Origin: Desulfarculus sp.
GTDB lineage: Bacteria > Desulfobacterota > Desulfarculia > Desulfarculales > Desulfarculaceae
Length of the DNA stretch: 64,000 bases
Direction: 5' to 3'
Assembly (NCBI GenBank): GCA_003605055.1
Contig: QZKP01000020.1
Coordinates: 124,001 to 188,000, forward strand
Shown: positions 45,475 to 50,665 of the stretch, one piece after another
Position numbering within the stretch: position 1 is the first letter of the stretch
How the letters are laid out: each line of letters opens with the position of its first letter
Notes under the pieces: generated by a model
Told to the model about the DNA's origin: nothing
The model's database searches: none
Seen by the model: the letters and a program-made list of their open reading frames with translations, nothing else
Made by a program: the position numbers and the translations under genes

Positions 45475-47034
45475 ATGCAGCGTTTCCAGGTGCCCGACGT
45501 AATCATCACCGACGTCATCGCCAGCCACGGCAAGTGGCGGGCCAGCAAGCCGGCCGTGATCTGCGAGGACGACTCCATCACCTGGGGGGACTTCAACCGC
45601 CGGGTGAACCAGGCGGCCAACCGGCTCAGGGCCCTGGGCCTGGCCAAGGGCGACAAGGCCAGCTTGTTGTGCGGCAACTGCATCGAGATGCTCATCAGCC
45701 TGTTCGGCATCATCAAGGCCGGCGGCGTGGCCGTGCCCCTGAGCGTGATGGTGCAGGGCGAGTCCCTGGCGCGCATGGTGGTGGACTCGGACAGCAAGTT
45801 CCTCCTGGCCCAGGCGCCCATGGCCCCGGTGATGAACGCCTTTCGGGACCAGTTCACGGCCATCGCCCCCGAGGGCTACGTGGTCATCGGCGGCCAAGCC
45901 CCCGGCTGGACGCCCTTCTACGACTTCCTGCTCCCGGCCGCGGACACGGAGCCCGGGGTCAGGCTGGTCTATGAGGACCCCATCAACATCATGTACACCT
46001 CGGGCACCACCGGCGTGCCCAAGGGCATCCTGCACAACCACCACAACCGCACCCACTTCGCCCTGTCCTTCGGCATGGACTTCCGCTGCGACTCCAGCGC
46101 GGTGAGCATCGTCACCACCGCCCTGTACGCCAACGGCACCTGGCTGACCATGCTGCCCACCATCTTCGGCGGCGGCACCCTGGTGGTGATGACCAAGTTC
46201 GAGCCCCAGGAGTTCCTGGCCCTGGCCGCCCGGCACCGCTGCACGCACACCTTCATGGTGCCCACCCAGTTCACGGTGCTCTTGGAGCAGGAGAACTTCG
46301 GCCAGTACGACCTCAGCTCCATGCGGGTGTGGCTCTCGGCCGGCAGCCCCTTCCGGCCCCAGACCAAGCGCGAGGTGCTGGAGCGCTTCCCGGGCGAGCT
46401 GATGGAGCTGTGGGGGCTCACCGAGGGCGTGGCCACCACGCTGAAGCCCGAGCACATGCGCGCCAAGACCGAGTCCGTGGGCCTGCCCCTGGTGGGCTGG
46501 GACGTGGCCATCATAGACGAGCAGGGCCAGCGCCTGCCGCCCAACCAGTCCGGCGAGATCGTGGCCTTCAGCGTCTTCCTGATGCCCGAGTACTACAAGC
46601 TGCCCGACAAGACCCAGGAGGCCATCTGGCTGGACGAACAGGGCCGCACCTTCCTGCGCACCGGGGACATGGGCAAGCTGGACGAGGACGGCTTCCTCTA
46701 CGTCCTGGACCGCAAAAAGGATATGATCATCAGCGGGGGCATAAACATCTTCGCCAGCGACATCGAGGAGGTGGCCGCCAAGCACCCGGCGGTGGCCGAC
46801 GTGGCGGTGATCGGCCTGCCCCACCCCAAATGGGGCGAGACGCCGGTGGCCCTGGTCATCCCCAAGCCCGAGGCCGCGGCCGGGGCCGGGGAGATAAAGG
46901 ACTGGCTCAACCCCCGCCTGGCCAAGTACCAGCGGGTGAGCCAGGTCATCATCCGCCAGGACTTCCCGCGCAACGTGCTGGGCAAGGTGCTCAAGCGCGA
47001 GCTGCGCGACGAATACCAGAACCTGGCCGGTTAG
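45475..47034 (+). CDS. Acyl-CoA synthetase (AMP-forming, fatty-acid type)
   Basis: A 519-residue ANL ligase with I-M-Y-T-S-G-T-T-G-V-P-K-G, a W-G-L-T-E motif, R-T-G-D-M-G and the lysine in V-L-G-K-V-L-K. The ATG at 45475 with AGGAGGT ahead is chosen over the upstream frame, which overlaps the SDR gene. Its stop codon overlaps the stop of the convergent gene of the peptide locus by four bases (TTAG shared by both strands). Confidence 0.9.
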   Translation: MQRFQVPDVIITDVIASHGKWRASKPAVICEDDSITWGDFNRRVNQAANRLRALGLAKGDKASLLCGNCIEMLISLFGIIKAGGVAVPLSVMVQGESLARMVVDSDSKFLLAQAPMAPVMNAFRDQFTAIAPEGYVVIGGQAPGWTPFYDFLLPAADTEPGVRLVYEDPINIMYTSGTTGVPKGILHNHHNRTHFALSFGMDFRCDSSAVSIVTTALYANGTWLTMLPTIFGGGTLVVMTKFEPQEFLALAARHRCTHTFMVPTQFTVLLEQENFGQYDLSSMRVWLSAGSPFRPQTKREVLERFPGELMELWGLTEGVATTLKPEHMRAKTESVGLPLVGWDVAIIDEQGQRLPPNQSGEIVAFSVFLMPEYYKLPDKTQEAIWLDEQGRTFLRTGDMGKLDEDGFLYVLDRKKDMIISGGINIFASDIEEVAAKHPAVADVAVIGLPHPKWGETPVALVIPKPEAAAGAGEIKDWLNPRLAKYQRVSQVIIRQDFPRNVLGKVLKRELRDEYQNLAG

Positions 47035-47900
47035 GAGGGCTCCCCGCCGGCCCCCTGGTCCCGGCCGGCCAGGGCCCGCCACTGCTCCCGGGCCTGGGCG
47101 ATCTCGCCCAAGGCCTGGGACAGCAGGGCAAAGGCCTCCTGCCAGGCCTGGCAGGAGGCGGCCTGATAGCGCAGGAACCCCCGGCAGAAAAAGAAGAACT
47201 GGCAGGCCAGGCACTCGGGCTGCAGCCGGGGCAGGCCCTCCTGATACTCCCGCAGCCCGCGGCCGGGGCCGCTCTGTTGCCAGGCCCCGGGCGGGTCCCA
47301 AACGCTGCCCAGGCAGCGCCCGGCGGCCAGGTCATCGTAGCTGGCGGCCAGGTTGCCCTCCTGGTCGGCGAAGAGGTAGCGCTCGGGGTTGCAGCGGGCC
47401 AGTTCCCACAGGTCCAGGTTGCGGCTGTCCAGCAGGCAGGCCAGGATGGTGTGAAAGGGCTCCAGGGGCGCCTGCAGGGCGTGGTGGTGCAGATAGTGCT
47501 CCAGCAGCCCCCCGGCCTGCTCCTGGCTGATGGCGCTGCGGTTGTAGAGCAGGTCCACCGGCAGGCCCAGGGAGGCGGCCAGGCGGGCCTGCTCCAGCAG
47601 CCCCGGGCCGGAGGCCAGGCGCACCAGCACCCCGCCCCGGGCCAGGCGGTGGATGTTGTCCACCAGCTCCTCCACGCCTGAGGGATAGACCACCATGCCC
47701 CGCTCCCCCAGCTTCTGTTGCCGGGGGGCGCCGGACAGGGGGCCGAAGTAATCCACGCCCACCGCCTGCGGGCCCAGTTGCGCCAGGCCTTCCTCGATCA
47801 GGGCCCCGTCGCGGCCGTAGAGCACCACCTGCAAGGGCAGGCGCTCAGACCAGGCAACCAGCGGGGGACAGTGCATACTCAGCGGCGCGTCCGCGGCCAT
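47031..47900 (-). CDS. Cysteine-rich SPASM-like partner protein of the peptide locus
   Basis: A 289-residue protein I do not recognise. It has no CxxxCxxC radical SAM motif, but its C-terminal half carries Cys170, Cys196, Cys230, Cys233, Cys239 and Cys250; C230-x2-C233-x5-C239 matches the core of a SPASM auxiliary-cluster domain, with the rest degenerate. The N-terminal part has alternating beta/alpha character, so it may be a radical SAM protein that has lost its catalytic cluster and acts as partner or recognition subunit. It starts at ATG 47900 with GGAG seven bases before, and overlaps the second radical SAM gene by 56 bases, which implies tight coupling. It is the last gene of the locus. 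Confidence 0.65.
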   Translation of the reverse strand: MAADAPLSMHCPPLVAWSERLPLQVVLYGRDGALIEEGLAQLGPQAVGVDYFGPLSGAPRQQKLGERGMVVYPSGVEELVDNIHRLARGGVLVRLASGPGLLEQARLAASLGLPVDLLYNRSAISQEQAGGLLEHYLHHHALQAPLEPFHTILACLLDSRNLDLWELARCNPERYLFADQEGNLAASYDDLAAGRCLGSVWDPPGAWQQSGPGRGLREYQEGLPRLQPECLACQFFFFCRGFLRYQAASCQAWQEAFALLSQALGEIAQAREQWRALAGRDQGAGGEPS

Positions 47901-49038
47901 AGCATATCTCCGGCAGGGGTTCCGGCTCCTGGTCCGCCCGGGGGGCGCCGAACACCTGCTCGAAAAAGTATTTGCGGGCCTGGCACCAGGTGGTGGGGCG
48001 GAAGGGGTCGCCGTAGGTTATCTCCGGGTCCACGTAGCAGCCGCCGTGGCAATAGCGCCACCAGCCGCAGCCCCGGCAGGCGCTGAGCTGCAGGTAGATG
48101 ATGCGGTTGGCGCAGCGCAGCCGCACCGGCGAGTCCAGGATGGCGGCCAGGTCCTGCTGAAGGATGTTGCCCAGGGGCTGGGTGCCCCGGTCCACGCCGC
48201 GGCCGCAGGTGTAGATGGTGCCGTCGGCGTCCACCCCCAGGTGGGAGCTGGCGCAGTTGCCCGACTCCTCGCAGCACAGGTTGTTGGTGATGCCCTGGTG
48301 GTGGTACTCGTGCAGGGCGCTAAAGGGGTCCCAGCGCTGCTGGGTGCCGCTGTCCAGCCACAGGCCGTACATCTCCACCATGAAGCGGCCCCACTGCTCA
48401 GGGGTGAGGTGGTAGTGCTCGGAGCCCGGTCGGCCGGCTCGGCCCTCGGGGTACATGGGGTTCATGCGCACTGGGATGTCGACGAACTCACCGGCGAGGC
48501 ACGCGAACACCTCCGCCGCCCGGTCCAGGGAGTAGCGGTGCACGGTATAGACCAGGCCCAGGGGCTGGCCCTCCTGGCGGGCCAGGCCCACCGAGGCCCG
48601 GAAGCGCCGGTCGTAATCGCCCTGCTTCATCAGGCGGATGCCGCCGATGGGGTCGAAGCTGGTGCCGATGGGCCCCGGGGTTCCGTCGTCCAGGCGCAGC
48701 AGGCGCTTGAGCAGCCCGGCAATGTCCGGGTTGTAGGCCAGCAGGTTGGACTGCATGATGTTGTTCACCTCCAGCCCGGCCGGCCGCAGCAGCTCCTCCT
48801 GCAGCTCCAGAACCAGCTCGTAGAAGGAGGCGGGCATCAACAGGGGCTCCCCGCCGTGCCAGGTGAACATCACCCCGCGCAGGCCCCGCTCGGCCTGCGC
48901 GGCCAGGCGCTGGTGCAGCAGCCGCAGCGTCTGGCGGCTCATGGTCAGGCGAGGATAGTGCTCCTTCCAGGCCGAGCAGTACACGCAGGCCGCGTTGCAG
49001 GCGTTGGTGGGCTTCATGATCAGGGTGGCGTATTCCAT
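47845..49038 (-). CDS. Radical SAM/SPASM enzyme 2 of the peptide locus
   Basis: A 397-residue radical SAM protein with the catalytic Cys14-x3-Cys18-x2-Cys21 motif for the [4Fe-4S]/SAM site (A-C-N-A-A-C-V-Y-C) and a G-G-E-P-L stretch. The C-terminal half is a SPASM-type domain with two more clusters' worth of cysteines (C-C-E-E-S-G-N-C, I-Y-T-C-G-R-G, C-R-G-C-x5-C-H-G-G-C). This build resembles anaerobic sulfatase-maturating and peptide-crosslinking enzymes. It should modify the repeat peptide encoded upstream, for example by C-C bond formation. It follows enzyme 1 by three bases. Confidence 0.88.
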   Translation of the reverse strand: MEYATLIMKPTNACNAACVYCSAWKEHYPRLTMSRQTLRLLHQRLAAQAERGLRGVMFTWHGGEPLLMPASFYELVLELQEELLRPAGLEVNNIMQSNLLAYNPDIAGLLKRLLRLDDGTPGPIGTSFDPIGGIRLMKQGDYDRRFRASVGLARQEGQPLGLVYTVHRYSLDRAAEVFACLAGEFVDIPVRMNPMYPEGRAGRPGSEHYHLTPEQWGRFMVEMYGLWLDSGTQQRWDPFSALHEYHHQGITNNLCCEESGNCASSHLGVDADGTIYTCGRGVDRGTQPLGNILQQDLAAILDSPVRLRCANRIIYLQLSACRGCGWWRYCHGGCYVDPEITYGDPFRPTTWCQARKYFFEQVFGAPRADQEPEPLPEICYGRGRAAEYALSPAGCLV

Positions 49039-49041
49039 GGC

Positions 49042-50022
49042 CTAGCCTATCTGGGCGATGTCCCGCTCCAGGTAGTGGGAGATGCAGCCGCCCGAGCACT
49101 GCCGGCGCTCAAGGAACTTGCAGGAGGCGCATTTGTCGTACAGGCCCTTTTGCTCCAGCTCCGGCTGGAACATGCCGGTCAGGTGCTTGACCAGGGCCTC
49201 CAGGTCGCTGAACTGGGTGAGCAGCACGCTCTTGGTGGCCGACAGGGGGAAGCAGAACCAGACCTTGAGGTCCGGGCCGATGTCAATGGGCGGGCCGCAG
49301 GTGAAGTTTAGCTGCGCGTCGCAGCGGAACAGGGCCCCGATCTGGGCGTCGCTGAACAGGCACAGGGGGAAGCCGCAGTCCATGATGATCTTGATCCCCT
49401 GCTTATCGCACTCCGCGGCCAGGGCCAGCACCTGCTCCACCACCCGTGGGTAGTCGGCCACGGGCAGGCCCAGGTTCTGCCGGCCCACGATGGGCTGGGC
49501 CAGGCCCAGGCGCAAATGGGAAGTCAGCTCGTAGCGGGCGATGGTCTCCAGCAGAAAGGAGAAGTCGTGGTCGGCCCGGAATATGTTGAAGCTCAGGGAG
49601 GCGTTCTGCTTCAGGCTGGCCATGACCCGGCGCTGGCTGGCGTCCTCTTCGGCGCTGCGCAGGTGCCCTTCGTTGAGGTTGATCACCAGGCACAGCTCCT
49701 GGCTGCTGGGGGCGAAGTCGGCCAGCACCGCGCCTATCTCCGCCAGCACCGGCGGGGCCATGACGCCGTTGGTGAACACGTTGACCAGGAAGTGGCGGCC
49801 TAGCACGTAGCGCAGGAAGTGGGCGAAGCGGGGGTGCAGGGTGGGCTCGCCGCCCAGGATGTTCAGGTGCTTGGCGCCGGAGCCGTCCAGGAAGTCCAGC
49901 ACCGTCACCAGGTTGGCAAAGGAAAGCTGGTGCTGGGCCGTGGGATCCTGGCTGAGCTTCTCCTTGGCGAAGCAGTAAGGGCAGTTGCGATTGCAATAGT
50001 CTGTGAATAGCAGGTTGGGCAA
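49042..50022 (-). CDS. Radical SAM enzyme 1 of the peptide locus
   Basis: A 326-residue radical SAM protein with Cys10-x3-Cys14-x2-Cys17 (Y-C-N-R-N-C-P-Y-C) and G-G-E-P-T. The C-terminal part has C-G-P-P, F-C-F and a C-x2-C-x6-C-x3-C run (K-C-A-S-C, Q-C-S-G-G-C), so an auxiliary cluster is likely. It is the first enzyme gene after the precursor, 112 bases away. Two different radical SAM enzymes in one locus recall the paired maturases of the His-Xaa-Ser (Hxs) systems, although the precursor differs. Confidence 0.87.
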   Translation of the reverse strand: MPNLLFTDYCNRNCPYCFAKEKLSQDPTAQHQLSFANLVTVLDFLDGSGAKHLNILGGEPTLHPRFAHFLRYVLGRHFLVNVFTNGVMAPPVLAEIGAVLADFAPSSQELCLVINLNEGHLRSAEEDASQRRVMASLKQNASLSFNIFRADHDFSFLLETIARYELTSHLRLGLAQPIVGRQNLGLPVADYPRVVEQVLALAAECDKQGIKIIMDCGFPLCLFSDAQIGALFRCDAQLNFTCGPPIDIGPDLKVWFCFPLSATKSVLLTQFSDLEALVKHLTGMFQPELEQKGLYDKCASCKFLERRQCSGGCISHYLERDIAQIG

Positions 50023-50134
50023 GTGGATTCCTCAGCGGGAGCGAAGCGACCTTGCGCCAAGACGCGCCGGACGCCGCCCGGGCAGAACCCCGGCCGCCGG
50101 CCGGCGGATAGACACCGGAGGCTTCACCAGTGAT

Positions 50135-50521
50135 TCAGGACCGGCTGTACTTGCCGTAGTTCACGTATTTGCCGTAGTTAACGTACTTGCCGTAGTTGAT
50201 GTACTTGGAATAAACGATGGAACTGGTGGAGTACTGCCGGCTGTAGGCGCCGTAGTTGGTGTAGGCGCCGTAGTTGGTGTAGGCCCCGTAGTTGGTGTAG
50301 CTGCCCGAGCTGCTGGAGGAGTCGCTGTAGACCGAATAGCCGCTGCTGTCGCTGCTGCCGCCGCCTCCTCCGCAGCTCCCCCCCTGCGGCCGCAGGGCGC
50401 CGTTTTCACCCACGCCTATGCCGCCCACACCCACGATCAGGCCGCAGACGGCCAGGGACCATTTTCTGAGATTCTTGAGGAAATCACGCCTGGTGCCGCC
50501 ATTAGTGCTGGACGCACCCAT
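50135..50521 (-). CDS. Putative RiPP precursor: Tat leader plus Tyr-x-x repeat core
   Basis: A 128-residue protein. Residues 8-38 look like a Tat signal: T-R-R-D-F-L-K followed by a hydrophobic stretch. A Gly/Ser-rich linker (about 45-70, with G-G-S-C-G-G-G-G-G) leads to two repeat blocks. In block 1 (75-93) Tyr-Thr-Asn and Tyr-Gly-Ala alternate three times; in block 2 (104-125) Tyr-Ser-Lys, then Tyr-Ile/Val-Asn and Tyr-Gly-Lys alternate three times. Tyr thus recurs every third residue, and the third position is mostly Asn, Lys or Ala. The ATG at 50521 has GGAGG five bases ahead; the ORF start at 50536 does not. It directly precedes two radical SAM genes on the same strand. Known triceptide RiPPs carry aromatic-x-Asn/Asp/Lys/Arg cyclophanes, which fits, but homology is not shown. 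Confidence 0.72.
   Translation of the reverse strand: MGASSTNGGTRRDFLKNLRKWSLAVCGLIVGVGGIGVGENGALRPQGGSCGGGGGSSDSSGYSVYSDSSSSSGSYTNYGAYTNYGAYTNYGAYSRQYSTSSIVYSKYINYGKYVNYGKYVNYGKYSRS
50147..50212 (-). repeat. 18-bp tandem repeats encoding the Y-x-N-Y-G-K block
   Basis: About three copies of an 18-base unit (plus-strand form CCGTAGTT-A/C-ACGTA-TTTG-type), each coding Tyr-Ile/Val-Asn-Tyr-Gly-Lys. The reading frame is kept and synonymous changes are few. Confidence 0.75.
50243..50299 (-). repeat. 18-bp tandem repeats encoding the Y-T-N-Y-G-A block
   Basis: Three copies of an 18-base unit (plus-strand GCGCCGTAGTTGGTGTAG), nearly identical, coding Tyr-Thr-Asn-Tyr-Gly-Ala. Confidence 0.8.
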
Positions 50522-50665
50522 GGTACCCTCCGTCATGGCAGATTTAGAGGTATTCGCGGACCCGGCTGGTTAAATTAGGCAGCTAGACCGCAGTCGCCTC
50601 ATCTTCAATACAAAGGCCAAGATGTATAAAACGAGCTGATGGTCTTTTCGCTGCTGTAGCTATCT

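Follow-up and report, generated by a model that had tools for sequence, protein, structure and literature searches.

What is made of a short, tyrosine-rich protein with a Tat-type leader that is encoded beside two radical SAM enzymes? The question is raised by the window analyzed here, a 64,000-nucleotide stretch of contig 1 in a genome assembly of 3.6 Mb, in which the first-pass annotation had described four same-strand genes with their own promoter as a possible new RiPP class. All four genes were found on the minus strand at 47031-50521, adjacent to one another and in the order PRE, RS1, RS2, and P4 in the ORF list (Table 1). RS1, which has a TTG start codon, stops 3 bases before RS2, and P4 and the end of RS2 overlap. 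A CitMHS/TrkA-C transporter gene lies on the same strand ~260 bases upstream of PRE, and a convergent AMP-binding ligase gene follows P4. The tight spacing, together with the gene order kept in relatives, supports a single unit of four genes. The claim of a separate promoter is unproven, as the minus strand ahead of PRE showed no sigma70-like site. The GC-rich hairpin of the PRE-RS1 spacer (MFE -60 kcal/mol, z -1.9) could conceivably set the precursor-to-enzyme ratio. Because the neighborhood is not kept around the flanking transporter's relatives in the genus, a clean empty site was not demonstrable.

Table 1. Features of the PRE/RS1/RS2/P4 locus (window coordinates) and the sister loci (coordinates within each locus)
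Feature	Coordinates	Strand	Description and basis
PRE	50135..50521	-	ORF; 128-aa precursor in which a Tat-like leader and a Cys-Gly5 linker precede the Tyr triplet repeats
Leader of PRE, TRRDFLKNLRKWS	50420..50521	-	Twin-arginine motif and hydrophobic stretch; TIGR01409, 15 bits
PRE repeat block 1	50237..50299	-	(YTN)(YGA) x3, then (YSR); translation and triplet parse
PRE repeat block 2	50141..50212	-	(YSK)(YIN)(YGK)(YVN)(YGK)(YVN)(YGK)(YSR); translation and triplet parse
PRE-RS1 spacer	50015..50140	-	Strong hairpin predicted
RS1	49042..50022	-	PF04055; radical SAM protein whose C-terminal Cys set is SPASM-like
RS2	47845..49038	-	PF13186 SPASM; NF041298, 140 bits; radical SAM/SPASM protein
P4	47031..47900	-	SPASM-like partner lacking the radical SAM motif; four Cys are invariant
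Sister loci	L053:5346-7929, L054:2333-4933, L055:5192-7764, L052:3926-8718	-	

The start of PRE is most likely the ATG at 50521, which gives the 128-aa product and has a GGAGG ribosome-binding site, whereas the ATG at 50536 has none. PRE matched no curated family in NCBIfam, Pfam, or PHROGs, and its Tat-signal score (TIGR01409, 15.0 bits) fell just short of the 16.7-bit cut-off. The Tat leader described for this short repeat protein was nevertheless confirmed by its motif, TRRDFLK. The two arginines are invariant across all precursors, a hydrophobic region is present, and a TatC gene was found in 8/8 genomes, the window genome among them, so PRE has the sequence features and the genomic background expected of a Tat substrate. 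No dedicated protease gene was seen at the locus, and the leader would be processed via the Tat pathway and signal peptidase. A Cys close to the presumed mature start of several precursors hints that some of them may be lipoproteins; an Lgt gene follows the set in G112 and G075.

The Tyr repeat of PRE is not a chance pattern: 14 of the 17 Tyr-Tyr gaps in the window peptide equal 3, a lag-3 count reached by 0 of 5000 shuffles. The first-pass annotation had expected conserved Y-x-x repeats, and this expectation stood only in part. A Tyr at every third residue is not a family rule, since the period is 6 in the window (YTNYGA), 3 in G189 and G460 (xNY), 4 in G117 (YTSG-type), 7 in G112 (YYYNYGD), and 10 in G075 (YYNYFRYSRS). 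What is constant is a Y-x-[N/D/R/K/S/A] triplet, with Lys (four window triplets) being our addition to the acceptor set. Every Tyr core parses into such triplets, most of them set apart by at most one spacer residue, as in s(YYN)(YFR)(YSR)s, y(YYN)(YGD)y, and g(YTS)g. The spacing from Tyr to Tyr varies (1, 2, 3, or 4 residues), whereas that from Tyr to the polar third residue is constant at +2.

In the window, 16/18 Tyr residues parse as Y-x-[NDRKSA] (shuffle mean 7.0, maximum 13). With Tyr positions fixed, the acceptor residues were enriched at +2 in 6/9 peptides (p < 0.001) and not at +1 in those peptides; in strict period-3 arrays, where the third residue of one triplet directly precedes the following Tyr, the signal is confounded with spacing, so that the period-4, 7, and 10 members alone separate the two. 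The repeats are under purifying selection (dN 0.09 and dS 1.9 between the G189 and G460 cores). The non-synonymous changes between these two cores fell on 6/23 middle residues and on 2/50 Tyr and third positions (Fisher p 0.010), and drift confined to the middle residue is the pattern expected from an enzyme that touches residues 1 and 3. The proposal that the enzymes modify the repeated Tyr residues or their third-position neighbors can thus be sharpened, in that Tyr with its third residue forms the conserved unit.

Both enzymes are radical SAM proteins, as first described: RS1 and RS2 each carry CxxxCxxC and pass the Pfam Radical_SAM model (47.2 and 35.4 bits, respectively; cut-off 29.5), and RS2 passes the SPASM model in addition. 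RS1 scored far under every curated NCBIfam cut-off. Its best model matches (viperin, MoaA, and HxsC) cover the N-terminal radical SAM core only, and its identification as viperin, the antiviral radical SAM enzyme, was rejected on this ground (45 of 180 bits). An alignment of 10 relatives showed that CxxxCxxC and seven further Cys residues of RS1 are invariant. For RS2, the best full-length models are DynA, the sulfatase maturase, and Dar-type enzymes; neither the top model, DynA (NF041298, 140 of 450 bits), nor the second, the sulfatase maturase TIGR03942 (108 of 349 bits), admits RS2 as a member.

P4 has no CxxxCxxC, and its C-terminal CxxCx5C-x10-C (four Cys) is invariant in 11/11 relatives, in agreement with the cysteine-rich SPASM-like partner that had been annotated. 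It belongs to no curated family in NCBIfam, Pfam, or PHROGs, and the SPASM model TIGR04085 was matched only below threshold (E 0.17). Comparison by hhalign showed that the C-terminal Cys region resembles the SPASM region of RS2 and that the resemblance is limited to that region. P4 is not a degenerate RS1 paralogue, since the two profiles show no similarity (hhalign probability 0.4%). A single-sequence fold model of P4 had a pLDDT of 44.6, and its Foldseek matches were not meaningful.

In a sample of 395 genomes of the phylum, RS1 had 13 further matches at E 1e-20. Six of these belong to the PRE/RS1/RS2/P4 set (G112, G117, G175, G075, G154, and G189), and a class search added a seventh locus, G460; PRE and P4 were absent from all other searched genomes of the class to which the window genome belongs. 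The set recurs patchily across the phylum, in distant bacteria. The order PRE-RS1-P4-RS2 is found in G112, G117, G189, G460, and G075, the last of which has two precursors; the G175 contig ends after RS1. A GT9 glycosyltransferase domain is present in six loci and absent from the window locus: it is fused to RS2 in G112, G189, G460, and G075, is encoded by the next gene in G117, and occurs as two genes along with RS1-RS2-P4 in G154. No precursor was detectable in G154, the closest relative. No RRE/PqqD gene was recognized in the Tyr loci, which number fewer than ten and lie mostly in draft genomes.

Strong matches to the P4 profile occurred only in genomes with the set. PRE homologues were found in six other genomes and as one truncated copy in G147, whose contig ends inside PRE; the PRE profile marks the same genomes as the P4 profile except G154, plus G147. 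Two weak PRE-profile matches (E about 2e-4) inside 500- and 780-residue frames were taken as chance. PRE lies just upstream of RS1 wherever the contig allows. The neighborhood comparison accordingly bore out a conserved system, with synteny and co-occurrence kept, and the search of the 395 genomes for precursor homologues without radical SAM neighbors, which had been named in advance as evidence against the proposal, did not refute it. The locus has a short precursor beside modifying enzymes that are conserved with it, as RiPP loci do, and we are highly confident that it encodes a RiPP-type system of some kind.

Outside the set, RS1 homologues adjoin PqqD or YcaO/TfuA genes. On plasmid pTs417 of Candidatus Thiodictyon syntrophicum (L080:2573-8650), an RS1 relative lies by a PqqD-family protein and YcaO/TfuA-like genes. 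A Spirochaetes MAG (L017:7720-9852) encodes a PqqD protein, an RS1 relative, and an RS1-resembling protein without CxxxCxxC. At L025:4379-8277 and L026:510-3429, RS1 relatives stand beside a B12-binding-type radical SAM protein; both loci also encode a small protein like lasso-peptide B2 proteases and show no Tyr repeats, a RiPP-like context in which the families were assigned by eye. A Chlorohelix plasmid (L079:3339-9898) carries an RS1 relative (33% identity) amid three radical SAM genes, with a 98-aa protein and a WD40 protein around it. In the plasmid collection as a whole, RS1 relatives occurred in other contexts only, and P4 was not found.

Four weaker P4 matches (G432, G067, G347, and G418) led to a sister family. 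At each sister locus, P4 is encoded together with one or two RS2-like radical SAM/SPASM proteins and a Tat-leader peptide that carries W-x-N repeats, and the leader motif RRxFLxxLxKWS is common to the window PRE and the sister peptides. All core Trp residues (29/29) have an acceptor residue at +2, mostly Asn, and are separated by Gly runs. The sister precursor and the P4-like protein belong to no NCBIfam or Pfam family, and TIGR03942 is the top-scoring model for the sister enzymes. The four sister loci, with P4 and RS2-like proteins, showed neither RS1 nor GT9; P4 with an RS2-type enzyme is therefore what the two branches share, and RS1 and GT9 accompany the Tyr branch. A SnoaL-like gene lies just upstream in 3/4 sister loci. 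The G432 locus encodes a 689-aa protein (L052:3926-5995) with two radical SAM parts in one chain, the N-terminal half SPASM maturase-like and the C-terminal half NirJ/PqqE-like.

In triceptides, the maturase links an aromatic ring with the beta-carbon of the residue at +2, and the published pairs are Tyr-Asp (YxdB), Tyr-Arg (YhhB), Trp-Asn/Asp/Arg, Phe-Asn/Ser, and His-Ala (PMC11002830). On the basis of these pairs and of the third residues observed here (Asn, Asp, Arg, Ser, and Ala, also Lys), we propose RS2-catalyzed three-residue cyclophanes. The system would then be a triceptide-like RiPP family, exported by Tat, whose Tyr rings are each cross-linked by RS2, with P4, to the beta-carbon two residues on, a reading that we hold with reasonable though far from full confidence. 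In its favor are the kept synteny and co-occurrence, the triplet conservation, the W-x-N sister family, the best full-length models of RS2, the PqqD and YcaO/TfuA neighbors of RS1 homologues elsewhere, and TatC in all eight genomes. Weighing against it are the low triceptide-maturase scores of RS2, the failure to recognize an RRE/PqqD gene in the Tyr loci, the confounding in period-3 arrays, our addition of Lys, G154 with enzymes but no detectable precursor, the lack of GT9 in the window locus, and the small number of loci. PRE would be synthesized in the cytoplasm, where RS2, probably the cross-linking enzyme and of a type kept in both the Tyr and W-x-N families, would abstract a beta-hydrogen at the third position of every Y-x-[N/D/R/K/S/A] triplet and bond that beta-carbon to the Tyr ring, giving a chain of such cyclophanes. 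P4 may serve RS2 as an iron-sulfur and/or substrate-docking partner, and RS1 may be an additional maturase found only with the Tyr family. The GT9 domain of most relatives may glycosylate the product afterwards. A cross-linked chain would be unfit for Sec threading and would leave via Tat, some members perhaps as lipoproteins; Tat moves folded proteins (PMC10924467), which suits a stiff chain of this kind. No description of a radical SAM RiPP exported folded via Tat was found in the papers searched.

The conserved Tyr residues also admit a different chemistry, in which the enzymes would act on Tyr residues one by one (through oxidation, ring addition, or tyramine-type excision) or join the side chains of neighboring ones, yielding a redox-active or metal-binding polymer with the third residue as a solubility spacer. 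Tyr is the one residue common to all Tyr-family members, GT9 could glycosylate the phenol, and the PqqE and mycofactocin radical SAM enzymes act on Tyr. The spliceotide radical SAM enzyme likewise acts on Tyr (PMC11002830). However, it is the Tyr-Tyr spacing that varies and the +2 polar residue that is constant, with drift in the middle residue alone, and Tyr-Tyr joining does not predict a sister family whose Trp residues are set apart by Gly; we regard this explanation as unlikely. That RS2 is instead a sulfatase-maturase-like oxidase, making formylglycine or another aldehyde in the repeats while RS1 acts elsewhere, draws on its TIGR03942 score, on matches to solved anSME structures, and on the preference of the sister enzymes for the same model. 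But the window RS2 is below that cut-off and scores higher with DynA, PRE lacks a sulfatase-type motif, and among the conserved third residues are Arg, Asp, and Lys, from which formylglycine is not made, so we give this option very little credence.

PRE might also be an ordinary exported Tyr-rich structural protein whose neighboring enzymes serve some other substrate, for repeats of low complexity readily arise and G154 has the enzymes without a visible precursor. Against this, PRE matches coincide with RS1/P4 loci in 395 genomes, their position upstream of RS1 is kept, and the repeats bear the mark of selection, which leaves this idea quite improbable. Returning to the triceptide-like reading, the product may, as a guess, be a surface or periplasmic structural polymer. 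A bolder version, which we put forward tentatively and consider rather doubtful as a whole, is that Tyr and Trp branches would both yield Tat-exported poly-cyclophanes, matured by a heteromeric complex that unites radical SAM enzymes with the SPASM-only P4 and glycosylated in the Tyr branch, that act as rigid cell-surface polymers and not as diffusible small peptides.

The locus ties an unnamed gene set to a testable prediction at residue level, about 16 cross-links of -2 Da each, and indicates two unnamed protein families, PRE and P4. A rigid, cross-linked chain could plausibly leave the cell in the folded state through Tat. The pair of Tyr and Trp branches is a natural experiment on the choice of aromatic partner and on the contributions of GT9 and RS1. 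Triceptide bioactivities still await elucidation (PMC12257519), and a large, apparently exported member would be a useful handle on them.

The gene set was not recognized as a named family at the outset, and the database results agree, with PRE and P4 matching no NCBIfam or Pfam family and RS1 and RS2 far below the curated NCBIfam cut-offs; no published description of the set was found in a literature search that left most subscription journals outside its scope. The His-Xaa-Ser system (HxsA/B/C/D) shares a repeat precursor and two radical SAM enzymes, one with SPASM, but its repeats are H-x-S and those of PRE are Tyr repeats, and membership was rejected (RS2-HxsB, 38.6 of 370 bits; RS1-HxsC, 24.6 of 267.9 bits). 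GeoRSP (TIGR04303 radical SAM, TIGR04304 SPASM-only, and PqqD) likewise pairs a radical SAM/SPASM enzyme with a separate SPASM-only protein; P4, however, does not match TIGR04304, its one match being the weak one to TIGR04085, and no PqqD protein was recognized in the Tyr loci, so this assignment was also rejected. The dynobactin and darobactin maturases (DynA, DarE, and DarW) include the best full-length model of RS2 but differ in the unreached 450-bit cut-off, in their short non-repetitive antibiotic precursors, and in having a single radical SAM enzyme.

The triceptides (XyeB/XncB, GrrM/OscB, FxsB/MscB, YxdB, YhhB, and HaaB) share with this locus a radical SAM/SPASM enzyme that adjoins a precursor of aromatic-x-polar repeats, as well as the residue identities Tyr-Asp, Tyr-Arg, and Trp-Asn. 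The core of PRE fits this pattern, with aromatic-x-x repeats whose third residue is polar or Ala (Lys added to the set). RS2 falls outside the named three-residue-cyclophane families, with 26 bits for XyeB, 44 for YhhB, 46 for FxsB, and 39 for GrrM (26-49 bits when AmcB is included; cut-offs 310-450). The "new RiPP class" first suggested is therefore probably too strong for what is an unnamed, conserved, RiPP-like system: because the predicted chemistry is that of triceptides, it is probably better described as a new family with a new gene set and a reaction type already known, set apart from the triceptides by its Tat-type leader, P4, RS1, and, in relatives, the GT9 domain.
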